A stretch of 64,000 bases of DNA from positions 1 to 64,000 of the forward strand of contig BGKB01000057.1 of the NCBI GenBank assembly GCA_003116975.1. The letters are read 5' to 3'. How positions within the stretch are numbered: the first letter of the stretch is position 1; every line of letters begins with the position of its first letter. The notes beneath the pieces are model-generated. The model saw only the letters and a list, made by a program, of their open reading frames with translations. It searched no databases and was not told the origin of the DNA. The position numbers and the translations under genes were made by a program. Below, piece by piece: positions 1 to 41,417 of the stretch. This DNA comes from Aurantiochytrium sp. KH105 (Eukaryota; Sar; Bigyra; Thraustochytrida; Thraustochytriidae).

Positions 1-1351
1 CATCATGCACAGTCTTCAGGAAAACGAGATCGGCGACGATGGCGCCGTTGGGCTCGGGGAAGGCTTGGGCAAGAATAGCACGCTTACGTATTTGAAGTAA
101 GTTGGTTCGGTTGTAGGCAAGACTTTGGATTGGACAACGGAAGAAGGTGGCATGCGTGAACTTCTGCGTGAAGGAAGGCAGGTAGGCGTTCGTGGCGGAG
201 AGCAGAAAGGCGGGATTGCGCCGAGACGACGGCGACGGCGACTGCGACGGCGACATGAGGGTGGACACTGACAGCCATTCGCGCTCATCAACGAATGCAA
301 TTTTAATGCCATGCCACACCACAATCATCATGCACAGTCTTGGTTTGAACAACATCGGCCCAGATGGCGCCGTTGGGCTCGGGCAAGGCTTGGGCAAGAA
401 CAGCTCGCTTACGTCTTTGTAGTAAGTTGGTTCGGTTGTGTCGTCCTGCTTTTGATTGGAGGCAAGACTTTGGATTGGACAACGCAAGAAGGTGGCATGC
501 GTGGATTTCTGCGTGAAGGAAGGCAGGTGGGCGTTCGTGGCGGGGAGCAGAAAGGCGGGACTGTGCCAAGACGACGGCGACGGCGACATGAGGGTGGACA
601 CTGACAGCCATTTCGCGCTCATAAATCAATGCAATCAATGCCATGCCACACCACAATCATCATGCACAGTCTTTACAAAAACGAGATCGGCGACGATGGT
701 GGCGTTGGGCTCGGGGAAGGCTTGGGCAAGAACAGGTCGCTTACGTCTTTGAAGTAAGTTGGTTCGATTGTGTTTTGCTGCGTTTGATTGGAGGCAAGAC
801 TTTGGATTGGACAACGCGAGAAGGCGGCATGCGTGGATTTCTGCGTGAAGGAAGGCAGATGGGCGTTCGTGGCGGAGAGCAGAAAGGCGGGACTGCGCCA
901 AGACGACGGCGACGGCGACATGAGGGTGGACACTGACAGCCATTTCGCGCTCATCAATGAATGCAATCAATGCAATGAATGCCATGCCACACCACAATCA
1001 TCATGCACAGTCTTGAGCAGAACAACATCGGCGACTCGGGCGCCGTTGGGCTCGGGGAAGGCTTGGGCAAGAACAGCTCGCTTACGTCTTTGTCGTAAGT
1101 TGGTTCGGTTGTGTTTTGCTGCGTTTGATTGGAGGCAAGACTTTGGATTGGACAACGCAAGAAGGCGGCATGCGTGGATTTCTGCGTGAAGGAAGGCAGG
1201 TGGGCGTTCGTGGCGGAGAGCAGAAAGGCGGGACTGCGCCAAGACGACGGCGACGGCGACATGAGGGTGGACACTGACAGCCATTTCGCGCTCATCAATG
1301 AATGCAATCAATGCAATGAATGCCATGCCACACCACAATCATCATGCACAG
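1..1351 (+). repeat. Tandem LRR exon-intron units, about 325-341 bp each
   Basis: The acceptor-side landmark CATCATGCACAG starts at 1, 326, 658, 999 and 1340, giving periods of 325, 332, 341 and 341 bp. Each unit is one 84-nt LRR exon plus one intron (97-337, 422-669, 754-1010, 1095-1351). The third and fourth introns are both 257 nt and differ at only three positions by my alignment. The units duplicate a whole exon with its splice sites, so adding or removing one leaves the reading frame intact. Confidence 0.9.
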
Positions 1352-4300
1352 TCTTCAGTCGAACAACATCGGCGTCGCTGGTCAGACGACGATTGCCGAG
1401 GTGCTCTTGTCGAAGAATGGTTGCTTGCGTCAAATCTTGTAAGTTGTGTTTGGACATGACTTTTGCTTTGCAGAAAGTATTAAAATTCTGCATACTGACC
1501 CTTCCGTTCTCTGGAATCAGTGGCCTACCTAATCTACCATCAAGCTCGTGGACCGAGCTGCTCCAAACTTCGAAAGGCGGCGCCAGGGTGAAGCGAATTC
1601 GGGAGTATCTTTTCGACAAGGATGAAGAAAAATGGACGTTGGCCGCGCATGAGCTGGCTGGGGAATCGGCGCACATATTCGCGCTCTTTGTTATTCTTGT
1701 CACTCGAGAATACGCGGAGATGCAGGAGACGCAGATGCGTCTCGAGAACCCTGATTTTTGGCTTCTGAAGCATGAAAGTGCGAACGACGAGGAGAAAGAG
1801 GGACAGGACGAAGACGCCAATCTTCCATTGATCCATGCACTGTTTGACTGTCACGCGACCAGAACGGAATTTTCCCTTCCGCGACGATTTTGCGATGAAG
1901 TTCTCATGAAGTTCCTTTCTCTCAAAGATGGTCTACTGTTGATGAAGGCTGAAGACAACGGTGGTCGAACGGTTCGTTCACTTGCGCTCACTAATAAGAA
2001 TACCAAGGGGTGGGCCAAAATGTATGGCACATATCTCGATCGTTACAGTGTCATGGAAGGCCCTCCAGTTCATGAATCCAAAACATGCGCGGTTCATTTC
2101 GCGACGGACATCCTAACAAACAAAGCTGTGGCGCTCAAGATCATGCGTGAAAAAGACCAATACGATCGCGAGATTGTTGCACGCACAGCTGCAGACGGCG
2201 GAGATGCGAATCTTGAAGGCTGTTTGCCGCTTCTCCACCGCGAGGATTCGGCGTTCGCTGGACGCCTGAAAAATGAGCTTTGCCTGGTGATGAAAAGAGG
2301 CTCGCGGTCGCTTTTTGAAGCCATTAATACGGAGCGCTTTGCTGGCCGCGATCTGCAAAAGATCCGCACGATCGCGTACAAGATTCTTTCTGCAGTCAAA
2401 AGTCTGCACGACAGCGGTCGAATTCATGGTGACATCAAGCCGCGCAACGTTGTGCGTGTCGCTGCTTCAAAGCAGTACACGTTCTCGGACAAAGGCAAAG
2501 GAGGTCGTCTCGAGGTGCCTCAGGAATGGCGAGACAACGTGACGGGAGAGCGCTCAGACGTTACAAGTGACGAAGACTGGCAACTTATCGATTTGGACGC
2601 ATCGGCGAAGATGGAGGATCTGATTACTGAAAAGGTGAGCACAGGTTACGCAGCCCCCGAATTAGCCAAATGGCATTTCCTGCCCAAAACAAAAAGGGAC
2701 AAGGCGCCCCCGGCTGACCCAGCGATTGATGTTTGGGGCTTCGGCGTGGTGCTTTTTCAGATGCTCTCGGGCACGAAACTTTTCATGGTTGACGAGTCTG
2801 ACGACAACCTCGTGACGAACCACGACAAGGTGGAGCTAATGAATTGGCTTGCGCTGGACGACGAACGTCTTCGTCGCATCAAGAGTCGTCATGAGAAAGA
2901 TGAGGAGAAGGAGGGAGAGAACGGCGGTGAGATGATTGGGGGTGAAGATAGCGTGAATACAGATGGTCTCGATGCGGATGCTTACCAGATCGAGGCCGCG
3001 CGCGACTTGGTGCGACTTTGCCTTCGCGGCGATGCGAACGAACGCATAAAAATAGATCAAATTCTCAACGAGCATCCGTTTTTTGAGACCCTTCGCAACC
3101 TAAGCCATGAGAGCGAAGAGGTAGATACGGCCACCAAGGTCGCGCGCGCGAACAAGCGCGATTTCTCTCGTTTCTCTCGCCGTGTGATGAGCCTTCACAG
3201 GCGCGTGGTTCCCAGACGATTCAGTCTTTTCGGTAGCACGACCAAGTCGCGACTGAACAGAAATACAAGGTCGAGTATCTTTTACGAGGAACGTGCCCAT
3301 AACGAACTCATTGCGCTCCCAACATACCACTTTTTCCTGTCGCACATGCAGGCACAGGCGGCAGGGACTGTCAAGGACCTTGCAGCTGGCCTCGAGCGCC
3401 ATCGAATGTCATCTTGGGTTGATATGAATGCGACTGAGATTAGCCTTGAAGGCATGCATCGTGGCGTGCTTTCGTCGCAGTGCTTTATCATGGTGCTCAC
3501 CGAAGATGTACTGTTTCGGCCCTACTGTCTCGCCGAGTTGCATTATGCCGTTGAGTACTTTGGCCAAACAGAAGGTGGGCTGGCGAAGCACATTTTTTTC
3601 ATTGTCGAAGAAGATGACCGATTTCATCCATGGAATGATCATAACGTGCCATGGCATTGTCCTTCCGAAGATCTAATTGCGGACGAGGACCATTCGCATC
3701 GACAAGGGGCCGGCGATGACAGAGCTTCCAGTCCTAGCACAGTCTTAAGCAAGCTGGGCGCATGCACCTTTAGGTCAAAGAGGCAAGACGATGCGTCGCA
3801 GCATACTGGCGGCGACGAGGCAGATGCAGTAAGACATGCATCCAAACTTGAGAATTTACAAAAGTCATTGAAGGAGCTAAAGCTGCAGGACTGGAAAGGA
3901 GTTCCTGTGCGGCCAGAACAGATACTGAACAATGCGGAGACGGCTCTGTCAGAATGCAAACGTATCACATATCGTCGACGTCTCTTTGAGGAAGATGCAA
4001 TGCTGCGTGTTCTGGCAGAGAGAGCAGATTTCCAAGCCATCCCACGTCACATTGGGAAAATTGCTACAAACGAGAAGGAAGATCTTCGACTAAAGGTGGT
4101 GGGCAAACAAAGCTCCAAGGCAGTCAAAAACTTTGGACTCAAGCTCGGTAAGCAAAGGGTTTCTTTGAGAAGCGAAAAACCTCACGTCGTGGTGGTCGTA
4201 CTTGAGAAAGATTGCTGGGACGACGTTCAAAGGTTTTGGGAGAGCCAACCCCAAAAAGGAAGCGATGCTGAGGAAATGGGCGCTCCTCTTCTTGCAGTCG

Positions 4301-4530
4301 CGGTCTGCGGTACTGATGAGGAGTGGGATTTCAAGGACAAGAATAAGTTTAAAAACCCTGCACTCCGTTCTGAACTCTTTGACAGCCTCGAGGTGCTCAT
4401 GTGGCGGGATGCTCCTGGCGCCAAAAACCGGGATCCGGAAAAGTACATTGTGGAACACGAGGAACCAGCGCTCATCACGGAGCTTTGCTCACGTGCGAAA
4501 ATGTTGCAGCGGTCTCCTCTTAATATCTGA
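13..4530 (+). CDS. LRR - protein kinase-like - TIR receptor-like protein (5' partial)
   Basis: Six exons can be modelled: 13-96, 338-421, 670-753, 1011-1094, 1352-1438 and 1521-4530. Each of the first five begins after a CAG acceptor, ends before GTAAGT, and is spliced in the same phase, so the frame stays open into the last exon. Each encodes one 28-residue ribonuclease-inhibitor-type leucine-rich repeat (pattern L-x5-IG-x2-GAVGLG-x-GLGKN-x-SLT). The last exon holds a kinase-like domain: VALKIM at 2128-2145, HGDIKPRN at 2422-2448, DLD in place of DFG near 2590, and an APE motif at 2650-2664. A TIR domain follows (about 3310-3610). It starts FFLSH and contains CLAEL at 3526-3540, whose Glu aligns with the catalytic Glu of NAD-cleaving TIRs. 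No NB-ARC or NACHT domain is visible in this part. The 5' end, and so further LRRs, lies upstream of the window. Role in recognition and signalling is inferred. Confidence 0.8.
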
Positions 4531-5768
4531 ACCCCCTTTGACAACAATTAGATTCCTTTTGCATCCTTGCTCATCGCTCAAGAGAAGCTCGACGTTGAAA
4601 CTGATCGTTTGCTGTATGAAGGGTCCCGCTTTGACATTTCTTGAATTCCCCGCGCCACAAGAGACTCTCTGAGGTTCAAATCGATGAGTTGTACAGGTGC
4701 AAGGGGACAGAATAATGGGTCTTGGTGAGCAAAACTATCTTGCCAATTTGCAGCATCTGATCCTTGACGGAGTTTATGAGCTGAGGCATATTTTAAAGGT
4801 CCTTTGCCAAGGTTTGCGGCACGATGAGGGTAGCTGAAGGCATGTTGCGCATCCGAGTCATGCTTAAAGTGCTCTGCAGATTAGAAGATAGCGCGAATCC
4901 AATTTCAGCAGCAGCAGCAGCAGCAAAAGCGACACGAGACAGCGGTTATAGTCATAGCGAAACGGATGTCTCTTGCTTGATTTCAATAGATGGATGATCC
5001 AGGAAGTGATGCGCTCTGGGAATGCCAGACCAGCTCGGACGCTCATCGTACCAAGACTAAACGGTCATAACACATAGTGGCTGAGCGATGACTATCAGGC
5101 ATGCTCGTCGCGTACCTGGCGAATGTTGCTTGCACACTTTGACTTTGAATGCATCTGTGTCCTTTCTATCTGAAGCTTCAAGTGTTCTTTTCGTGGCCTC
5201 CACATTGAAATTCAAAAAAAAAAAGTATCAAAACCCTCGAAATAAGTTTGATGTGAAGGGAGACTTCTTCCAAGTTTTAGCGTAGACTTGCTCATGATGT
5301 CACTGTGTCGTGCAAGTTTACAAGTTGCGATTAACTTGACGCCGAATTATTTTTCTTGCATGAGGGACGGTGGCAGACTTCTTCTTAAGATCTTCTTGCT
5401 TTGACTGAGAGTATACCTTGCATTTTATACATACACGAAGTCGACGCGGTTGTTCAGATTTGACATCGTTCCTTCTGTTTTTCAAGATTTAGTCTTTTTG
5501 GCCATTGGACTTCTTCTCAAGATCTTCTTGCTTTGACTGAGAGTATACCTTGCATTTTATACATACACAAAGTCGACGCGGTTGTTCAGATCGACTTTGA
5601 GTTTCAAATTCACCTTTTCCCTCAAACAAGCCTGGCTGGGCCAAGGTCCAAAAGAAGCGCCGTTTACGAAACAGCCATGTGTTTGTTTTATGTAAACGCG
5701 TGCTCTGCCTGTTCTCACCACTACAACACGTTGAACAAGAAGAGAGGGGAAAAAGAAAAAAGTCAAAC
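4531..5768. other. Intergenic spacer between converging genes
   Basis: This is the tail-to-tail spacer between the LRR-kinase-TIR gene and CFAP52. I see no convincing gene. It contains a short CAG tract at about 4904-4924 and a duplicated 84-bp block described separately. The short open frames here have no recognisable similarity to anything and no supporting context. Confidence 0.6.
5376..5591. repeat. Direct repeat of an 84-bp block, period 132 bp
   Basis: The block at 5376-5459 recurs at 5508-5591 with about two mismatches. Both copies run from GACTTCTTCTT to GGTTGTTCAGAT. They lie immediately downstream of the CFAP52 stop codon (minus-strand gene), so one or both may fall in its 3' untranslated region. 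No coding or structural role is evident. Confidence 0.85.
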
Positions 5769-7637
5769 TCATTTGTGGCCCATTGACCTTCCTGCTGCCT
5801 TTGCCTCCTCGTCGCCAGCGTCATCGTCGAGATACACATTCCAGACCGCAATACACTTGTCTGAAGCCACCGCCACAAGTTGCTTCTGGTCAGGGCTCCA
5901 CGCCAAATCCTGAATCCCTCGCACCGTGTTGCCGGCAGACGTCGCCAAAAGTCGTCCAGAAGAGAGAGCCCACACGCGGACACGACCGTCCGTTGCAGCT
6001 GCAGCCAAAAAGGCTCCGTCCCCGGGAGACACGCGCACCGCCGTGAAACCTAGCGCCTTGGAACCATGAACCGAAACCTCTGAAACAGGCTGGTCCAAAT
6101 CAAAATCCCACGTGCAAATGCGGCCATCCGAACTCGCGGTAATGAGCTCGTTCTCGCTGTCGAGACGCTGCGTCATCGAGCTCGGAACGCCTCCCTGCTG
6201 CGGAATTTGATGCTGGACCATGCGCCGCTCCTTCTTGAGGTCGTATGTGAAAATGCTTCGATCCTCACCGCACGAGTGAAGCAAGTGCGCAGCGCGGCAG
6301 TCTGGAAGCACGCTCGTGACCGCGCGCCCCACATGGTCCGAAAACTCAAAGAGCTGCGCTCGTGACGATCGTGCCCACAGACGGACGCCGCCTCGCAAGC
6401 CACCCGTCGCATAATACAGCTGCGTGGCGCACACCGACGACACGCCATCACGGTGTGCGGTGGCAATCTCCCACGAAAGAGGCGCGGCATCCGACTTGAC
6501 TTCGCGCCATGCTCGAACAGCACCAGAAGCAAAACCTACAATCACCTCGCTCGCAACATCGTCAAAAGCAAGGCAGGTGCCCGCGTCCCGGTGTCTCGGC
6601 TGCGCCTGCGTCACCACAGAATAATCCGACAGATCCCAAACGCGAACCATGCCCGCTGCATTCAACGTCGCAAAGCGAATCGAACACGACGCTTTAAAGG
6701 CGACCGCAACAACGCTTGCCGTCTCACTTTGGAATTCGCGAAGCACCTTCAGCGTCGCAACGTCGAGCTCGTAGCAACGACCCTCGCTAGTACCAACCAG
6801 GACGCGCTCGCTTCCGCTCGCAGACAGACTCGTGACGCTGCCAAAGACGCTCATCTCGGCATCGAGTCTCCACTCCGCACCGCGTCCCGTAAGTCGCTTG
6901 ATTGTACCATCTCCACCGCCCACAAACACATAGACGCCCGCGGCGCACATACTTCGAGCACCGCCACTGCACACTGGAAAACTAGCACGATACACCTGCG
7001 AGTCCAACTGATAGACACTAACGTCGCCTACGCTTGTACACAGCAGCAAAGTCTCGCCGCATGGAGACTGACAAACGTCAAGGTACTCGCGGATCAAACC
7101 GGCAGGGAGCCGAAAGGGCAGCTTCGAGACTTCGTATTGCATGTTGCCAACAGAGTAGCGGAGCTGAAAGGAAAGCACCTGAGGCCCCACCGTAGCGTAC
7201 AAAACATATTCGGGCCTCCGCGAGCCTTCGACACGACGTGCCGGACCCCATTCAAGGGCAGTGGGCACCAAGCCGCTGCCCAAGCCCAAGCTGGCAATAA
7301 TCTCGCCAGTTTGCATGTCCCACACATACAGGGTGCCATCGCGCCCCGATCCGGCGAGGAAGACCTCATCTCCAGAAAAGGCGAGGCAAACTGCCGCCTG
7401 GCGAATGCCCTTGAGTCTATACACGTCCACTTGCTGGGCGAGGTCCCACACAATCACTTGCGCTTCTGGAATTGCCATGCGTCGTGAACCCTCCTGGCCC
7501 GACGCAGCTAGCGTTCCCTTTGCAGAAACAGCCACCACCGAGACCGTCTCGTCGTGTCCTTGCAGAAATCGCTGATTGTGGTCATCGCGTAGATCCTGAA
7601 TGACAACATTGCATCCCATCCTGGTTTCGTTTGTCAT
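5769..7637 (-). CDS. CFAP52: Cilia- and flagella-associated protein 52 (WD40-repeat, WDR16)
   Basis: The 622-residue protein is almost the same length as animal CFAP52/WDR16 (about 620). It opens with the family-typical GCNVVIQDL segment, followed by a QGHDETVSVVAVS strand and two WD40 propellers. Blade ends are visible as VIVWDL, TLYVWDM, MVRVWDL, ICTWDF, RVRVWAL and IAVWNV near the C-terminus. CFAP52 is a microtubule inner protein of axonemal doublets and is needed for ciliary motility in known systems, so its presence argues for a motile flagellated stage. The gene is intronless. The start at 7637 is the ATG just before the conserved N-terminus. A short acidic tail follows the last blade. 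Recognition is from sequence pattern, with no database search behind it. Confidence 0.88.
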   Translation of the reverse strand: MTNETRMGCNVVIQDLRDDHNQRFLQGHDETVSVVAVSAKGTLAASGQEGSRRMAIPEAQVIVWDLAQQVDVYRLKGIRQAAVCLAFSGDEVFLAGSGRDGTLYVWDMQTGEIIASLGLGSGLVPTALEWGPARRVEGSRRPEYVLYATVGPQVLSFQLRYSVGNMQYEVSKLPFRLPAGLIREYLDVCQSPCGETLLLCTSVGDVSVYQLDSQVYRASFPVCSGGARSMCAAGVYVFVGGGDGTIKRLTGRGAEWRLDAEMSVFGSVTSLSASGSERVLVGTSEGRCYELDVATLKVLREFQSETASVVAVAFKASCSIRFATLNAAGMVRVWDLSDYSVVTQAQPRHRDAGTCLAFDDVASEVIVGFASGAVRAWREVKSDAAPLSWEIATAHRDGVSSVCATQLYYATGGLRGGVRLWARSSRAQLFEFSDHVGRAVTSVLPDCRAAHLLHSCGEDRSIFTYDLKKERRMVQHQIPQQGGVPSSMTQRLDSENELITASSDGRICTWDFDLDQPVSEVSVHGSKALGFTAVRVSPGDGAFLAAAATDGRVRVWALSSGRLLATSAGNTVRGIQDLAWSPDQKQLVAVASDKCIAVWNVYLDDDAGDEEAKAAGRSMGHK

Positions 7638-8129
7638 TGTCGTTTGTCATCGTCGTCGTCGTCATTGTTTTCGTGTGATAATTCACCGTCCATCCTTCTC
7701 GTTGTTAGAGTTCGTCCACGTGATCGCGGAGACAAGACGTCATACCATCTATTAGACTTACCCCATAAGGCACAGGTCTGCATTCTTCGGGTGTCCGCAG
7801 AGCACCTTGCTATGCTCCCCGGAAAATCCAATCACGTGTTCCAGCTCAACCGGGTCCATCGTTTCCCGCCTCTACTTGCCTTGCCACACGCTTGATCCCC
7901 GAGGCGTCAATCACCCCTCCGCGCGCGCGCGCGCGGCCTACACAGCTCTTCGCTCTGTCTTCTTCCTCTCCTTTTCCTTTTTGCAGCTCTGTCTGCTTTT
8001 CCTCTGATTCTCGCATTGCATCGTGAAAGTTTGAACTTTTAGAACCGTAACGGCCATCAACAACGTATACTTTTTGTCAACAATAAAGGGGCCCAAAGAC
8101 TTTTTCTTTTTTTAAAATGTCAGTGTAAA
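7638..8129. promoter_or_regulatory. Spacer upstream of CFAP52, with alternating GC tract
   Basis: This 492-bp interval lies between the 5' end of CFAP52 and the 3' end of the next minus-strand gene, so it should carry the CFAP52 promoter. It includes an alternating (GC)n tract at about 7919-7935 and a C/T-rich stretch at 7955-8005. I see no defined promoter element or gene. Confidence 0.4.
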
Positions 8130-11100
8130 TCACGAGGAATCCTCCACCTTGGAGATGACCAATGAACGCATGCGCCCAAACCCGCGCGTGACATAGTCAA
8201 GTCCCAGCTCTTCACAAACTTCAGTCACCACGGCTTGAACTTCAGGCCGCAATACAGGCGTACTTATTTCGTTGCAGTCCTTGTGCTCGCGTAAAAAACA
8301 TGTCAGCCACTTTTCCACGCCATACTTTGACCAGTCAGAGTTATTTAACCACGATGCGGCATGCGCGACGTCATCAAAGGGCGCGTCATCCTCCAATGCG
8401 TCAGTATTGGCAGCATTGTCGCCCGCGTCCAAGTCATCAAGATCTTTCTGTGCGCCGTGAGCGTCGTCGCGAAACTCGAGCGGGATATCGTACGTGCTTT
8501 CTCCCGTGGCAAGGTTGTAGTAGTAGTTGTGTCCAGATGCTGGGTCATGATACTCTTGCCAAGGTCCAGATTCTCGTAGAGGTCCATCGTTTTCTTCCTC
8601 CGCAATCTTGTCAAAGTCTGTGGGACGCTCATACTGAAGTGCACCAGTGATCGTATTCTCGTACACCATGACGCCCGAGTCAGCATCGACGTACTTGGTC
8701 CAGCCATCAGCGCCCTCTTCAAAGCCAAGTGGGCGCGGGGTCTCAAATCCATCGGGGCGCATGTATTGCGTTGCCCCTGAAGTCTCATTATAGTAATAGT
8801 CGCGACCCACCGTTTCATCATGAAATTTCATCCACACGTCATCGCGTGGGGTGTCGTACCCCGGTGGTCTGTCGTATTGCGAGGCGTGAGTCTCATGATT
8901 GAAATAGTATGGCGTTCCCGACGACGCATCCACATACCGGCTCCACGTTGGGTGATTGTGTCGGTAGCGCGCATCTTCAGGATCTTCGCGCGGCGACTCG
9001 TATGCTGCGGGTCGCTCAAACAAAGAAATTCCGGTCGCCGCATTGTGGTAAAAGGCACGCCCGGTCTCCTCTTGAAAGACCTTGACCCACTCTTCTGCAT
9101 GTTTTTCTTCATCGACGCTCGCTCCTCCATCGCCATTTTTAGAATCCGGTGGTAAGGCCTCGTCGCCCTGCACGAGAAGTGCGGGATTATCGTACGTGGA
9201 TTCCCCCGTCTTGAGATTGTACCAATACTCTACTTGGTTTTCCTCATCAAAGTACTCCTTCCATGAATCCTCGACGCGCGGCGACTCGTAGTCTGCAGGT
9301 CGTTCGAAACGGACCTTTTGCTTTTGTCGATGCAAAAAGATCTCTCTTTCATTTTCGTAATCCCATAGCCTTTGCCATCGAGCCACCGCCGTACCTTCTG
9401 ATTTCATCGGTGCTTCACTCTCGCTGTCACTAAGACTTTCAGACTCACTATCAGCGTGGCGAGAATCGTCATCCTTGCTCTCCTTGCGCCTGCGTTTCTC
9501 GGCCTCTCGTACTATATCCGCTTCGGGGTCCAGCTCAGGGATACCTGCGGTAACCGGTAGACCTTGCTCCATTTGCTCGGCACGCAATTTACGGTGCCAC
9601 CCAAGACGATCATCTTGCTCAATTTCAGAAGGCCATATGGAGGGCCACTCGCCATCGCCATAATCAATGCGTTTTCCATACGCATCATAAAGTGCGCGAT
9701 AAGGGTGGTCCTTGCGATACCCTCCATGATGAACTTGGCCCCAGCAAGCTTCACAAAAGAACTCAGCGCAGGTTCCGCACTCCACATACGCATCTACGCT
9801 CTCGCAGTTCGTGCACGCGGGTCTTGGAAGGAGATCGAGCATGTCTTGTGGCATGCGCCAGCGCACTTCGCCCGTATCTTGATTGTAGTAAAAGGGGCGA
9901 TCCTGCTCGACATCATGCATTTGCTTCCAGCGGCGCTTACGCTCTTCGCGAAAGATGATTGCGCGCTTGCGCCCAATGCGTCCTCGATATTGTTTTTGCA
10001 CGAGAATGGCAGCCCACGTATCGAGGTCGCGCTGTCGACGCTCGCGATCCAGCTTTTCCTCGCGCACAGCCGCCACCTTGCGACGCGCAAGGCGTTTTCG
10101 AAGCAAGCACTGCATACGTTGCGCAGCAGCTTGTTGCTCGGCTTCGCGCGCCGCGCGAACCTGACGAATCATCTGCACCGCAAGCTTGCCCTGGCGTCCA
10201 CGCCAAATGGCCTGCACCTTGAGCGCGGCCCTCTCGGACGCAGCTGCTCGTTTGGCAGACCTCAACATGTGCACAGCAAGGCTTCCCTTTTTCGCACGCC
10301 ACATGCACTGCAGCTTGATAGCAGCTCGTTCTCTCTCCTCCACGGCTTCACGCTTGCGAGCAAGCTTTCTCCGCGCCAAGCGCACCCGCGCCGCCTGTTG
10401 CATTTTGATGCTCGCCTGCACCTTGCGCTCCGCCTCGAGCGCTTCCAGTTCCTTGCGCTGCGCAGCTCTGCGACGCTCGCGTCGTCCACGCATGATGCTC
10501 TGCAGCTTGGTCGCGGCGGCCTCCTCGGCGGCCAACTTTGCGAGCCGCACGGCGCGCAGCATCTCAAAGCGCTTGCGTCCCAAACGCCCTCGCCACAGCG
10601 TCTGCACGCGCGTGGCGGCACGCGCACACTTTTCAATGTACACTTGTCGAGCCCTGCGCGCGGCGTACAAGAGGTCCTTGGCGAGTTTGCCGCGCCAGCG
10701 CGTCTGAATGTAGATTGCGGCAGCCTGGCGGCGGCGCTCCAGCGCCTCGGCGCGTCTGACCGCGGCAACTTTTTGCGCCTGGCGCGCGCGAAAGAGACTC
10801 TGTAATTTTGTCGCCGCCTCGATCTCTTTGCGTCGCTGCAGTCGCCGCAAAATGGCGTACTTGCGCGCGACGCGGCCACGCCAGTGTGCCTGCAGACGTC
10901 GCGCGGTCCAATGCATGAGACGGATTTCGCGCCGTCGCGCAGCTTCGCGTCGGGCCATTCGAGCACGATGCGTGCTCTGGATGAGCACGGCGGCTTTCCA
11001 CACGGCGCCGTAGTCATCGATGAACCGCATGTCCCTGCACTTATCGTCTGGGGCCACGCCCACGAATTGTACGCCCTTGTGTACGTGCGTGTATTTCCAG

Positions 11101-28800: not shown

Positions 28801-29864
28801 TGCCTCTGTTGAATTTGCAAGCGTAGATCATTGGGGTGAGGCCAAATATGTCAGGCGCATCGATCTGTGCCCCGTCCGCCACGAGCTTTTTTGCCCTCGC
28901 AATGTCGCCGTTCTTGCATGCCCGCATGAGAGGCGTCTGGCTATTTTCGTACAAAAGGCGGCTGAGAGTGGCTTGGAGCTCTGCAAATCCGTCGCTGAGA
29001 CTTTATAGATGAACGAACGTCAGAACAAGAAAGGTGGCGCAGACTCCATTGTTCCTGTGTACTAACTTACTCCGAGTCTTGCGAAAGCAACGACGCCGCC
29101 ACGACGCTCCGCGGTTGCTGCAACATACCCTGTACACCCCGCGCCACCTCCAACATAGTCGCGAACTCCAGGAACGCGACGGCGTCGCCGCGATCCGAGC
29201 TCCTGGCCACCGCCAGCGCGTCCTCCTCGTTATCAGTTTTCAACTCCAGGTCGGCGCCCGCCCGGCAGCAGAGCTTGATGCAGCTCAGGCTGCGATGGCT
29301 TTCATTTGATTCACAACATGCCACCATGAGCGCGGTCCAGCCCTCGTTGTTCTGCAGGTCGAGCTTGGCGCCGCGCTGGATGAGCAACCGGGCCGCGTCG
29401 GGCTGGTCGTACTCGCACGCAAACATGAGCGCGGTCCGGCCCTCGTTGTTCTGCACGTCGAGCTTGGCGCCGCGCTCGATGAGCAACCGGGCCGTGTGGT
29501 CGTACTCGCACGCAAACATGAGCGCGGTCCAGCCCTCGTGGTCCTGCACGTCGAGCTTGGCGCCGCGCTCGACGAGCAACCGGGCCGTGTCGGGCTGCTC
29601 GCAGCGGCACGCGAGCATGAGCGCGGTCGAGCCCTCGTGGTCCTGCACGTCGAGCTCGGCGCCGCGCTCGACGAGCCACTGCGCGATGGCGGGCTGGCCT
29701 CCGGAGTCCAGATGAAGGGCCCACAAGAGCGGCGTGTGCTTATTCGCCGTCACCGCCGCGTTGAGCAGGGCGGGGTCGTCCTGCACGGCGCGCTGCACGC
29801 CGGCGAGGTCGCCGTCCTTGATGAGGTCGCGCAGGCGCCTCCTTGCGCGCGCGCGCGTGGCCAT
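25853..29864 (-). CDS. Ankyrin - SAM-like - coiled coil - kinase-like - RBR-like E3 protein, copy A
   Basis: Exon 1 is 29071-29864 and exon 2 is 25853-28994. The 76-nt intron has a GTAAGT donor and a CTCAG acceptor and joins the exons in frame, giving about 1311 residues. The start at MATRARARR is chosen because frames upstream differ between the three paralogues. Exon 1 encodes ankyrin repeats, including three near-identical units of 33, 31 and 33 residues. Exon 2 adds ankyrin-like SQTPLMRACKNGD, a SAM-like segment (about 389-425) and charged coiled coil. A kinase-like domain follows (about 820-1055), with VLK lysine, HCDVKPEN, DFD instead of DFG, and APEL. Next is a RING-like CAIC domain (about 1068) and a second Cys cluster, CPRC...CCALKCGTC (about 1199), which matches the RBR Rcat pattern including the transfer Cys. 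It may be a regulated ubiquitin ligase; function is inferred. Confidence 0.8.
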
Positions 29865-34200: not shown

Positions 34201-35902
34201 CTTTGCAAGAGATAGATCGTCTCCATCCTCGTTGAATTTGCAAGCGTAGATCATTGGGGTGAGGTCGAATATGTCACGCGCATCGATCGGTGCCCCATCC
34301 GCCACGAGCTTTTTTGCCCTCGCAATGTCGCCGTTCTTGCATGCCCGCATGAGAGGCGTCTGGCTCCTTTCGTACAAAACGTGAGCGCGATCGAGAATGG
34401 CTTCGGGCTCTGCGTCTCTATTGCTGGAAGTGTATAAAAAAACGAACGTCAGAACAAGAAAAGTAGCGCAGACTCCATTGTTCCTGTGTAACTTACTCTT
34501 GCGAAACGAACGACGCCGCCCCGACGCTCCGAGTCCGCACCTGCTGCAACCTACCCTGCACACCCCGCACCACCTCCGCAATCGTCACGAACTCCAGGAA
34601 CGCGACGGCGTCGGCGCGATTTTCGTCCTTGGCCACCGCCAGCGCGTCATTGCCGTTCTTATTTTTCAACTCCAGGTCGGCGCCTGCCCCGTAGCAGAGC
34701 TTGATGCAGCGCAGGAGGCCCGACGCGGTGTGATGCGCTTTAGATGGCTGCTGACATGCCACCATGAGCGCGGTCCATCCCTCGTTGTTCTGCAGGTCGA
34801 GCTTGGCGACGCGCGCGATGAGCAACCGGGCGATGGCGGGCTGGTCGTAGCAGCACGCGAGCATGAGCGCGGTCCATCCCTCTTTGTCCTGCAGGTCAAG
34901 CTTGGCGTCGTGCTCAATGAGCAACTGGGCCGTGTCGGGCTGGTCGTGGCGGCACGCAAACATGAGCGCGGTCCATTTCTCGTCGTTCTGCAGGTCGAGG
35001 TTGGCGCCGCGCTCGATGAGCAACTTCGCCGTGTCGGGCTGGTCGTAGCGGCACGCGTACATGAGCGCGGTCCACTCCTCGTCGTCCTGCAGGTCGAGGT
35101 TGGCGCCGCGCTGGATGAGCAACTGGGGCGTGTCGGGCTGGTCGTAGCGGCACGCGTACATGAGCGCGGTCCATCCCTCGTTGTCCTGCAGGTCAAGCTT
35201 GGCGTCGCGCTGGATGAGCAACTGGGCCGTGTCGGGCTGGTCGCAGCAGCACGCGAGCATGAGCGCGGTCGATCCCTCTTTGTCCTGCAGGTCAAGCTTG
35301 GCGTCACGCTGGATGAGCAACCGGGCCGTGTCGGGCTGGTCGTAGCGGCACGCGTACATGAGCGCGGTCCATCCCTCGTTGTCCTGCAGGTCAAGCTTGG
35401 CGCCGCGCTCGATGAGCAACTGGGCCGTGTCGGGCTGGTCGTAGCGGCACGCGAACATGAGCGCGGTCGATCCCTCTTTGTCCTGCAGGTCAAGCTTTGC
35501 GCCGCGCTGGATGAGCATCTGGACCGTGTCGGGCTGGTCGTAGCTGCATGCGATCATGAGCGCGGTCCAGCCCTCGTTGTTCTGCAGGTCGAGCTTGGCG
35601 CCGCGCTGGATGAGCATCTGGGCCGCGTCGGGCTGGCCGTCGCTGCACGCGATCATGAGCGCGGTCCAGCCCTTGACGTCCTGCAGGTCGAGCTTGGCGC
35701 CCTGCTCCACGAGCCACTGCGCGATGGCGGGCTGGCCTCCGAAGCTCGGGTCGAGGGCCCACAAGAGCGGCGTGTGCTTGTCCGCCGTCACCGCCGCGTC
35801 GAGCAGGGCAGGGTCGGCCTGCACGGCGCGCTGCACGCCGGCGAGGTCGCCGCTCTCGATGAGGTCGCGCAGGCGCCTCCTTGCGCGCGCGCGCGTTGCC
35901 AT
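31273..35902 (-). CDS. Ankyrin - SAM-like - coiled coil - kinase-like - RBR-like E3 protein, copy B
   Basis: Exon 1 is 34497-35902 and exon 2 is 31273-34423, joined across a 73-nt intron (GTAAGT ... TTCCAG) in frame for about 1518 residues, the longest of the three. Exon 1 contains nine exact 33-residue ankyrin units of the type GWTALMYACRYDQPDTA followed by QLLI-R-AKLDLQ, flanked by more divergent repeats. Exon 2 is laid out as in copy A, with the SAM-like region near 597, kinase HCDVKPEN near 1157, RING-like CAIC near 1273 and Rcat-like CPRC near 1405. The Rcat-like block here reads AGCCALECGAC, closer to the usual G-C consensus than copies A and C. The stop codon TAA overlaps an AATAAA on the minus strand. 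Without splicing, the ankyrin part ends at a stop just after the donor, so it is easily misannotated as a separate gene. Confidence 0.82.
34764..35654 (-). repeat. 99-bp minisatellite encoding ankyrin repeats (9 units)
   Basis: On the plus strand the landmark ATGAGCGCGGTC recurs at 34764, 34863, 34962, 35061, 35160, 35259, 35358, 35457, 35556 and 35655, exactly 99 bp apart with no indels. Each unit encodes one 33-residue ankyrin repeat. Equivalent arrays hold three units in copy A (29326-29616, one of 93 bp) and two in copy C (40996-41193). Confidence 0.95.
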
Positions 35903-40300: not shown

Positions 40301-41417
40301 AAATATTCCAGCGGTAACGAGTGTATGAAAGAAAGAAAGGTGGACAGCTCCATGCGATTCTCGGAAGAAACATGCGCAAGAGCCATCTCAATCCCAAGGG
40401 AGTTGCTTGAAAGACCTGCGCTGTGCTCAAAAAGAAGCTTTGCAAGAGATAGACCGTCTCCATCCTCGTTGAATTTGCAAGCGTAGATCATTGGGGTGAG
40501 GCCCAATTTGTCACGCGCATCGATCTGTGCCCCGTCCGCCACGAGCTCTTCTGCCCTTGCAAGGTTGCCCTTCATGCATGCACGCATAAGAGGCGTCTGG
40601 CTCTTTTGGTACAGATCTTGAGCGCTGTCGAGAATGGCTTCGGGCTCTGTGTCTCCATTGCTGGAAGTTCATACAAAGAACGAACGTCAGAACAAGAAAG
40701 GTGGCGCATACTCCATCGTTTCTGTGTAACTCACTCTTGCGAAAGCAACGACGCCGCCACGACGCTCCGCGGTTGCTGCAACCTACCCTGCACACCCCGC
40801 GCCACCTCCAACATAGTCGCGAACTCCAGGAACGCGACGGCGTCGCCGCGATCCCAGTACTTGGCCACCGCCAGCGCGTCATCACCATTTTCATCTTTCA
40901 GATTCAGATCGGCGCCCGCCGCGTAGCAGAGCTTGAGGCTGCGCAGGAGACCCGACGCGGTGTGATGCGATTCCTCTGGCAGCTGACATGCCAGCATGAG
41001 CGCGGTGTATCCATGATTGATCTGCAGGTCAAGCTTTGCGCCGCGCTCGATGAGCAACTGGGCCGTGGCGGGCTGGTCGTAGCGGCATGCGTACATGAGC
41101 GCGGCCCATCCCTCGTTGTTCACCAGGTCAAGCTTTGCGCCGCGCTCGATGAGCAACTGGGCCGTGTCGGGCTGGTCGTAGCGGCACGCGATCATGAGCG
41201 CGGTCCATCCCTCGTTGGTCTGCAGGTCGAGGTTGGCGTCTTGCTCAACAAGCCACTGCGCGATGGCGGGGTGCCCCCCGGAATCTGGATGAAGGGCCCA
41301 CATGAGCGGCGTGTGCTTGTTCGTCGTTACCGTCTCGTCGAGCAGGGCGGGGTCGTCCTGCACGGCGCGCTGCACGGCGAGGTCGCCGTTTTTGATGAGG
41401 TTGTACATGCTCGCCAT
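37315..41417 (-). CDS. Ankyrin - SAM-like - coiled coil - kinase-like - RBR-like E3 protein, copy C (with hydrophobic insert)
   Basis: Exon 1 is 40735-41417 and exon 2 is 37315-40660. The 74-nt intron has a GTGAGT donor and TTCCAG acceptor, and the frame gives about 1342 residues. The start MASMYNLIKNGD aligns with MATRARARR of copies A and B. Exon 1 has only two regular 33-residue ankyrin units. The SAM and coiled-coil region is the most divergent of the three, while the kinase and 3' parts are nearly identical to copy B or A in blocks. A 65-codon segment (39374-39568, residues about 592-656) absent from the others encodes strongly hydrophobic stretches such as FGLLPLMLLLLLLVMMI, which would be membrane-spanning if translated. 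HCDVKPEN lies near 982, CAIC near 1098 and CPRC near 1228. Upstream similarity ends near 41765, and no partner gene is seen there. Confidence 0.8.
39374..39568 (-). other. 195-nt in-frame insertion encoding hydrophobic segments, or an unusual intron
   Basis: The interval is exactly 65 codons with no stop. On the minus strand it begins GTCGAT and ends GCATCAG, so it has GT-AG borders but a poor donor. Removing it restores the alignment with copies A and B (ATCCA joined to GCTCTTC). It encodes two or three hydrophobic stretches. Confidence 0.5.

Follow-up and report, generated by a model that had tools for sequence, protein, structure and literature searches.

An array of probably exchangeable single-LRR exons at the 3' end of a putative kinase-TIR receptor gene in Aurantiochytrium sp. 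KH105

The LRR-ROC-COR (ROCO) genes of brown algae carry one LRR per exon, in phase 2 and as 72-nt repeats, and the available text of Teng 2024 (PMC11378527) describes exon shuffling, selection on the concave face and alternative splicing of such arrays. The arrays described here come from the thraustochytrid Aurantiochytrium sp. KH105, a stramenopile as the brown algae are. They share with the algal genes, as that text presents them, one-LRR exons of uniform length, phase 2, apparent shuffling and positive selection on the concave face, estimated here by counting (dN relative to intron distance 5.8, 4.4-10.3); KH105 has LRR-ROC-COR genes too. The two systems differ in repeat length, 72 nt in the algae against 84 nt in the RI-like repeats of KH105 (87 nt in the cap), and in effector, ROC-COR in the algae against Pkinase-TIR, without ROC-COR, in the gene studied here. 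Beyond what is available on the algal genes, the KH105 effectors scanned also hold TIR, kinase-TIR genes share the pool of units, and intron homogenisation and sub-exon blocks have been measured.

Group III LRR genes of Tetrahymena are arrays of 90-bp exons (84 in KH105) with phase-2 introns, according to the accessible sections of PMC6564038. Uniform exons and phase-2 introns are common to both organisms, as are clonal expansion, intergenic ectopic recombination and an exon number that varies between paralogues; intron length in T. thermophila is near 257 nt. The term "positive selection" is absent from the main text of that paper, and the association with REP retrotransposons is reported there for Tetrahymena. 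On these comparisons, the brown-algal and Tetrahymena arrays are close precedents, of which the KH105 arrays appear to be a variation. An evolutionary parallel only is the exon segment switching of snake three-finger toxin genes, where, in the available part of PMC2474615, intron segments are very similar while some exon segments are distinct and alter the molecular surface. The toxins, unlike the products considered here, are secreted venom proteins with no tandem one-repeat exons. Likewise, in MHC class I and II genes the codons of the binding face are hypervariable, the introns are more homogeneous and gene conversion acts on segments, but these genes vary allelically at few loci, whereas KH105 varies between tandem units and across many loci. 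Our literature search returned no account matching 84-bp phase-2 hypervariable LRR exons together with their introns, a statement about the search and not about what is in print. Titles and abstract openings yielded no paper on stramenopile genes combining ROCO, TIR, kinase and LRR, and among the matches listed for thraustochytrid or labyrinthulomycete LRR receptors none named the group.

The window, by which we mean the whole 64,000-nt stretch analysed (contig BGKB01000057.1), begins within a single-LRR exon array and, judged by its predicted exon chain, contains the 3' end of a receptor-like gene of the LRR-kinase-TIR type (Table 1). The uniform phase and the exon lengths given by an earlier sequence-only reading of this DNA were confirmed, and every exon of the array has AG/GT flanks. 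The joined LRR exons match Pfam LRR_6 (3.4e-25) and fit the 28-residue RI-like repeat LxxLxLxxNxIxxxGAxxLxxxL, and their best sequence match of solved structure is chain 5irm_A (E 8e-32), which we take to be rabbit NOD2; other structural matches include ribonuclease inhibitors and NLRP proteins. The effector exon matches Pkinase (3.9e-21) and TIR_2 (2.1e-8; 35.1 bits against a curated cut-off of 28). Repeats of 28 residues are shared with the RI-like LRR domains of animal NOD/NLR proteins, but Pfam listed neither NACHT nor NB-ARC in the six effector frames scanned (window, L009, L012, L019, L020 and L021).

Table 1. Predicted features of the receptor-like gene at the start of the window
Feature	Position	Strand	Observation
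LRR exon 1, 84 nt, phase 2	13..96	+	AG/GT flanks, open frame
Array intron 1	97..337	+	p 0.044-0.057 vs the window's three other array introns
LRR exon 2, 84 nt, phase 2	338..421	+	AG/GT flanks
Array intron 2	422..669	+	window sequence
LRR exon 3, 84 nt, phase 2	670..753	+	AG/GT flanks
Array intron 3	754..1010	+	3/257 differences vs intron 4
LRR exon 4, 84 nt, phase 2	1011..1094	+	AG/GT flanks
Array intron 4	1095..1351	+	1/257 differences vs intron of ROC-COR-TIR locus L013
C-terminal LRR cap exon, 87 nt, phase 2	1352..1438	+	AG/GT flanks
Predicted intron, cap to effector exon, phase 2	1439..1520	+	GT 1439, AG 1519-1520; inferred
Large effector exon	1521..4530	+	Pkinase ~2101-3084, TIR ~3331-3618, stop 4528-4530

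The same reading had reported that exons 3 and 4 differ at 14 of 84 bases, with seven amino acids changed and one silent difference, while the introns that follow them differ at only 3 of 257, and a recount reproduced these figures exactly (Fisher p = 4e-7). Exon divergence exceeds intron divergence in all six pairings of the four 84-nt units at the window (mean 0.159 vs 0.049), and the pattern survived wider sampling: 54 exon-intron units from 12 loci give 1,431 unit pairs, of which 87% show it, and among the 39 pairs of adjacent units the share is 77%. The pattern fails where introns are more than 20% apart (43.5% of 46 pairs), and the exon excess is weak at L014 (61% of 36 internal pairs) and L016. 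Third positions of the framework codons beside variable codons diverge by 0.105 and introns by 0.104, so that the introns look like ordinary recently related DNA. We therefore prefer to describe the introns as roughly neutral but homogenised and the binding-face codons as accelerated, rather than the introns as more conserved than the exons. Neutrality is approximate, since framework pS is 0.140. Among 43 pairs chosen for introns less than 3% apart, exon sites off the concave face have a pS of 0.096 and the introns a divergence of 0.022, which reflects either exon histories older than those of the adjacent introns or bias in the choice of pairs. Framework divergence follows intron distance (rho 0.42) and the divergence of the variable codons, picked from these same data, does not (rho 0.003).

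The seven changed residues had been placed mainly around the beta-strand face. This stands for four of them (codons 2, 3, 5 and 28); of the others, codons 9 and 22 vary but lie off the strand, while codon 11 belongs neither to the variable positions nor to the strand face. Across the 63 intact exons, 13, 14 and 10 amino acids occur at codons 2, 3 and 5, while codons 1, 4, 10, 14, 24 and 27 each show a single one. The predicted concave face, a set of positions taken from general LRR knowledge rather than from a structure, has a pN of 0.433 against 0.104 for introns (54 units), and its dN, by the counting method used throughout for dN, dS and dN/dS, exceeds the intron distance by a factor of 5.8 (4.4-10.3, 95% bootstrap over loci). 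The remainder of the exon has a dN/dS of 0.57 (0.46-0.70), and the effector frames 0.21-0.42 in 11 pairs with poorly aligned columns excluded. Exon acceleration thus appears to be concentrated mainly at the putative binding face, where recognition would take place.

Two comparison sets mostly show the usual order, with introns diverging faster. In the genes that carry the arrays, the fixed N-terminal exons diverge by a mean of 0.102 and the intervals between them by 0.21 and 0.19, and two older array pairs give 0.022 and 0.061 for exons against 0.064 and 0.076 for introns. Between genes, array introns are closer than both N-terminal intervals in all 21 testable gene pairs. A single genome supplies internal controls for claims that candidate immune receptors of protists arise by exon shuffling, in fixed exons, older unmoved arrays and silent sites beside selected codons.

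Similar array DNA is present on 17 contigs of the KH105 genome. Of the 66 units scoring at least 60 bits, 63, from 14 loci, are intact 84-nt phase-2 exons; of the three set aside, one holds an N run, one meets a contig end and one is an intact exon misregistered by 2 nt. Phase-2 cap exons of 87 nt recur at L011, L012, L014, L015, L017 and L019. Loci L009 and L020, which carry Roc, COR-A and TIR, draw on the same unit pool as the window gene, so that the pool is shared by two effector classes, kinase-TIR and ROC-COR-TIR, and the same recognition cassettes would serve two classes of receptor. The regions examined seem to be present twice in the genome, and some of the loci may accordingly be alleles; an allelic counterpart of the window gene is absent from the 8 kb of sister region on C77.

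We propose that each array is a set of exchangeable one-LRR exons belonging to an interlocus pool with homogenised introns and a hypervariable concave face, a reading that is probably correct, its splicing and function being predicted from sequence. Sequence comparison places the exon-intron units in a pool that covers many loci and both effector classes, and finds pool introns and framework codons alike when set against the fixed portions of these genes. Arrays would recombine by unequal crossing over and gene conversion, assisted by the similar introns and the uniform phase-2 84-nt exons; units would thereby be gained, lost and exchanged without a shift of frame, and neutral DNA would be homogenised, while diversifying selection would retain variants with different binding faces. 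The products may be sensors of self or non-self, with kinase, ROC-COR and TIR domains for signalling, and an immune function is presumed. A bolder version, in which a genome-wide pool of LRR cassettes is dealt out among receptor genes whose signalling ends differ, in blocks of a few codons and either recently within the strain or somatically, is in our judgement unlikely. If true, it would mean that a combinatorial repertoire of receptors exists beyond animals and plants. Thraustochytrids are kept in culture, and a culturable host would make somatic or population-level receptor repertoires of protists directly testable.

The sequence-only reading had offered recent duplication with diversifying selection, or templated exchange, and the data fit both together: the concave-face excess speaks for selection and the 21 gene pairs speak for exchange. 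Recent tandem duplication with strong positive selection on new point mutations, and without exchange between units, would account for the dN excess at the predicted concave face, and new mutations do contribute: one-off codons occur at sites 2 and 3 (four glycine codons, once each, at codon 3), and single-step intermediates are present at codon 9 (GCT) and between TCT (46 units) and GAA (9) at codon 26 (GCT and TAT, two each), so that recurrent mutation may have acted at these two codons. At L009, one tandem duplication of an intron and the next exon suffices for the shared intron of units 4205 and 4546 and the shared exon of units 4546 and 4887, which are therefore not evidence of conversion. 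As a general account, mutation after tandem duplication is nevertheless unlikely, for it does not explain the closeness of array introns relative to N-terminal introns in every gene pair. At the window, a purely tandem origin was rejected because the flanking exons mismatch whether the upstream or the downstream intron is taken into the unit; intron 4, moreover, is nearer to an intron on another contig than to its neighbour intron 3 (Table 1), so that local duplication is insufficient. For 42 of 54 introns the nearest relative lies in another locus. Codon 8 is GAC in 34 of the 63 exons; in 23 units, spread across 10 loci, it is CCA, three bases away. The six codons intermediate between these two are all absent, and all four combinations of the codon 8 and codon 26 alleles occur. 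When two units agree in amino acid at a given variable site, they use the same codon in 91% of pairs, against 11% at different sites (codon 28, Met and Trp left out), as expected of alleles common by descent. Between variable codons, r2 falls from 0.25 at 1-3 nt to 0.016, the chance level, at 30-80 nt (intron-intron LD was taken at 8 informative sites). With all alleles counted, 7 of the 36 pairs among the nine variable codons are associated at p < 0.05 (2-3, 2-5, 3-5, 8-9, 2-28, 25-26 and 2-9) and 29 are not; this test overturned the free combination of codons 2, 3 and 5 seen with the two commonest alleles only, and left short reassorting blocks (2-3-5, 8-9 and 25-26-27), between which the alleles associate almost at random. 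Both processes seem to apply: loci exchange units, even where one gene is kinase-TIR and the other ROC-COR-TIR, and diversifying selection acts as well.

Conservation of the introns by function, for instance in the role of pairing elements that serve the alternative splicing of exchangeable exons, is suggested by the uniform exon length and phase, which would permit in-frame skipping, by the alternative splicing described for brown-algal ROCO arrays in the available text of PMC11378527 and by a framework pS somewhat above intron divergence. This explanation was dropped and we consider it highly improbable: the introns diverge about as much as neighbouring third positions, in both of the older array pairs their divergence outpaces the total divergence of the exons, and in window positions 1-5000 Rfam found no family at gathering score, its lone match (2601-2666, in the effector exon) falling far below. 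Targeted hypermutation of the exons without selection would suit variation limited to a few codons within 84 nt, and is largely refuted by the third positions, which reach only the intron level, and by L1, N4 and I6, near-invariant between the variable codons (63, 63 and 61 of 63); together these rule out a mutator blind to amino acids and leave the idea with scarcely any probability. Exchange between arrays could also be mimicked by an assembly that joined reads across similar introns, and some of the links among exons, introns and loci may be assembly errors, given that 7 of the 17 array contigs terminate within the array and that an N check of four loci found runs of 100 at L011 and 1,312 at L016 and a single N at L014. 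That the whole mosaic is such an artefact is very unlikely. The contrast of exon and intron divergence is independent of linkage because the divergences belong to the sequences themselves, and the blocks reassort inside 84 nt, normally within one read at the read length that we assume. L009 (ROC-COR-TIR) and L021 (kinase) have in common a 1.57-kb block of 91% identity, of which about 0.9-1 kb, before the array, is absent from L013 and L018, the relatives of L009.

The sequence-only reading had described tandem LRR exons more divergent than their introns, two exons differing at 14 of 84 bases and the introns that follow them at 3 of 257; its exon and intron coordinates and difference counts all proved exact when the sequence was re-read. 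The gene is truncated at its 5' end because the window is the start of its contig, C57 (380 kb; the genome totals 76 Mb in 367 contigs). The LRR repeat is RI-like, with a Pfam match to LRR_6, and the best solved-structure relative is chain 5irm_A, presumably NOD2.

Coordinates of features in the window and in its sister region on contig C77
Feature	Position	Description
LRR exon array	13-1438	four exons of 84 nt, then a cap exon of 87 nt; boundaries all phase 2
Frame into which the array leads	1521-4530	protein kinase and TIR domains
End of C77 homology	near 5374-5478	
Direct repeat	5374-5570	two copies
C77 sister side (L029)	C77:268200-276200	8 kb
99-nt tandem repeat array	29325-29697	
99-nt tandem repeat array	34763-35735	within a minus-strand frame
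99-nt tandem repeat array	41025-41228	

Array DNA, searched twice against the same genome, gave close matches on at least 17 contigs, the same set both times, and more distant ones on at least C5, C21 and C68; the first search additionally listed C97, C229, C102 and C40, with C102 and C40 matched through a short intron stretch only. Twenty regions were taken, comprising the 16 close contigs besides C57 and four more distant arrays. An exon profile built from 42 seed exons detected 66 units at or above 60 bits in the close loci, 63 of which are intact, stop-free 84-nt exons with AG/GT borders, distributed over 14 loci (1 to 12 per locus, several loci being truncated) and encoding 60 distinct proteins. 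One array (L014, on C116) encodes the same LRR twice, 3.2 kb apart (L014:5101 and L014:8326), which suggests block duplication of several units. The effector of another locus (L015, on C215) aligns only to residues 1-156 and 840-1002 of the window protein, contiguously; it lacks the kinase and TIR parts and so looks like a broken member.

Exon and intron divergence was compared among the 54 units, from 12 loci, whose following intron is clean and 200-300 bases long (nine were excluded). The excess of exon divergence held under this wider sampling, in 87% of 1,431 unit pairs (means, exons 0.184 and introns 0.104), 288 of which have introns less than 6% apart. It is confined to nine codons (2, 3, 5, 8, 9, 22, 25, 26 and 28). 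Six of these, 2, 3, 5, 25, 26 and 28, which we take to be the LRR strand-face sites, form the concave set fixed beforehand from the LRR consensus; their pN is 0.433, and once corrected its ratio to the intron distance is 5.8 (4.4-10.3 when loci are bootstrapped). The dN/dS is 0.57 in the exon outside the concave face and 0.21-0.42 in the effector frames (11 pairs).

Third positions of framework codons adjoining variable codons diverge by 0.105 (0.085 further off), close to the intron mean, indicating that the array introns are, on average, under no unusual constraint and that codons of the putative binding face are accelerated. This comparison is qualified by framework pS, which at 0.140 somewhat exceeds the introns, and by the 43 pairs with introns less than 3% apart, where the exon excluding the concave face has a pS of 0.096, versus 0.022 in introns; either selecting pairs by intron biases this pS, or the exons may have histories older than those of the adjoining introns. 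The contrast weakens with age: exons are the more divergent in 43.5% of the 46 pairs with intron divergence above 20%.

Three fixed N-terminal LRR exons of array-bearing genes (10 loci, 45 gene pairs) served as a control. In 43 of the 45 pairs (all but L016-L024 and L021-L024) these exons have diverged less than the first N-terminal intron, and in every pair less than the second interval, part of which is a further LRR-like segment rather than intron. For the 21 pairs that have array introns as well, means were 0.102 for N-terminal exons, 0.21 and 0.19 for the intervals and 0.107 for array introns, the last being closer than the N-terminal intervals in every pair. Units correspond one to one in two older array pairs. 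The C5/C21 pair follows the usual order, introns diverging faster, in all seven units (exon 0.022, intron 0.064). In C68/C21 (0.061 and 0.076) exons exceed introns in 5 of 18 units, clearly in three (L027:4287, 4739 and 4996 against L028; exon 0.107-0.119, intron 0.048-0.075), while the rest of the pair is static, hinting at mild diversification there as well.

Within the exon, the same residue at the same variable site is encoded by an identical codon in 91% of pairs, versus 11% across different sites (codon 28, Met and Trp omitted). At codon 8, CCA is present in 23 units from 10 loci. Three substitutions separate it from GAC, and the six codons lying between the two are all missing from the 63 intact exons; codons 26 and 9 have a few intermediates. 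All four combinations of codon 8 and codon 26 alleles are present. When every allele is counted, association is seen for 7 of the 36 codon pairs, chiefly 2-3-5, 8-9 and 25-26; r2 is 0.25 for sites 1-3 nt apart and drops to 0.016 at 30-80 nt, where chance would give about 0.019. The pattern fits recombination or short-tract conversion together with selection for difference; point mutation plays a part too.

For 42 of 54 introns, and for 45 of the 63 exons, the closest counterpart is in a different locus; random placement would put about 90% in other loci, so a degree of locus signal persists. A single base in 257 separates window intron 4 from an intron of L013, whose effector is 94-95% identical to the ROC-COR-TIR frame of L009. 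L009 shares a block of 1.57 kb, at 91% identity, with L021, a gene of the kinase type; some 0.9-1 kb of this block does not occur in L013 and L018, the relatives of L009, although L009 and L013 match at 93% on the 5' side. The difference could reflect a gain in L009 or a loss in the other two.

The window gene's flank matches C77 at 96% over 3 kb, the homology ending where the window has a direct repeat; the 8 kb compared on the C77 side have no further match to window 1-9000 and lack the LRR-kinase-TIR gene, suggesting a presence/absence breakpoint. The flank of L014 has a sister on C44 (87%), a contig that neither the array-DNA nor the kinase-TIR-protein searches of this genome listed. In the sister-like L010 and L012 (5' flanks 93%; L010 interrupted by the contig end), the closest of 25 exon pairs differ at 8 of 84 bases.

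Published accounts describe the same LRR-exon-array design in brown-algal ROCO genes (PMC11378527) and Tetrahymena LRR genes (PMC6564038), from which exon length and effectors differ here, and, in snake toxin genes (PMC2474615), a parallel for alike introns with switched exon segments. As far as literature searches show, one cassette pool common to two TIR-bearing effector classes is new, as are controls based on silent sites and a block structure inside the exon. Architecture and selection together point to a putative immune or recognition receptor role.

The genome has 67 stretches matching the kinase-TIR protein and 59 matching the ROC-COR-TIR protein, several with internal stops, a large TIR-bearing receptor-like repertoire. 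Among eukaryotes, pfaD-type genes typically belong to thraustochytrid PUFA synthases; four above-cut-off matches to the pfaD family, on contigs C72, C155, C17 and C58, form two pairs of equal score within each pair and lie in frames of 2,081, 2,152, 1,845 and 1,857 residues. These paired matches and the two-copy pattern suggest a thraustochytrid host whose assembly holds both haplotypes or whose genome is duplicated. Elsewhere in the window are three 99-nt tandem repeat arrays, the second of which encodes ankyrin repeats (Ank_2, 1.1e-86) within a 627-aa minus-strand frame and is overlapped by a plus-strand frame of 573 aa.
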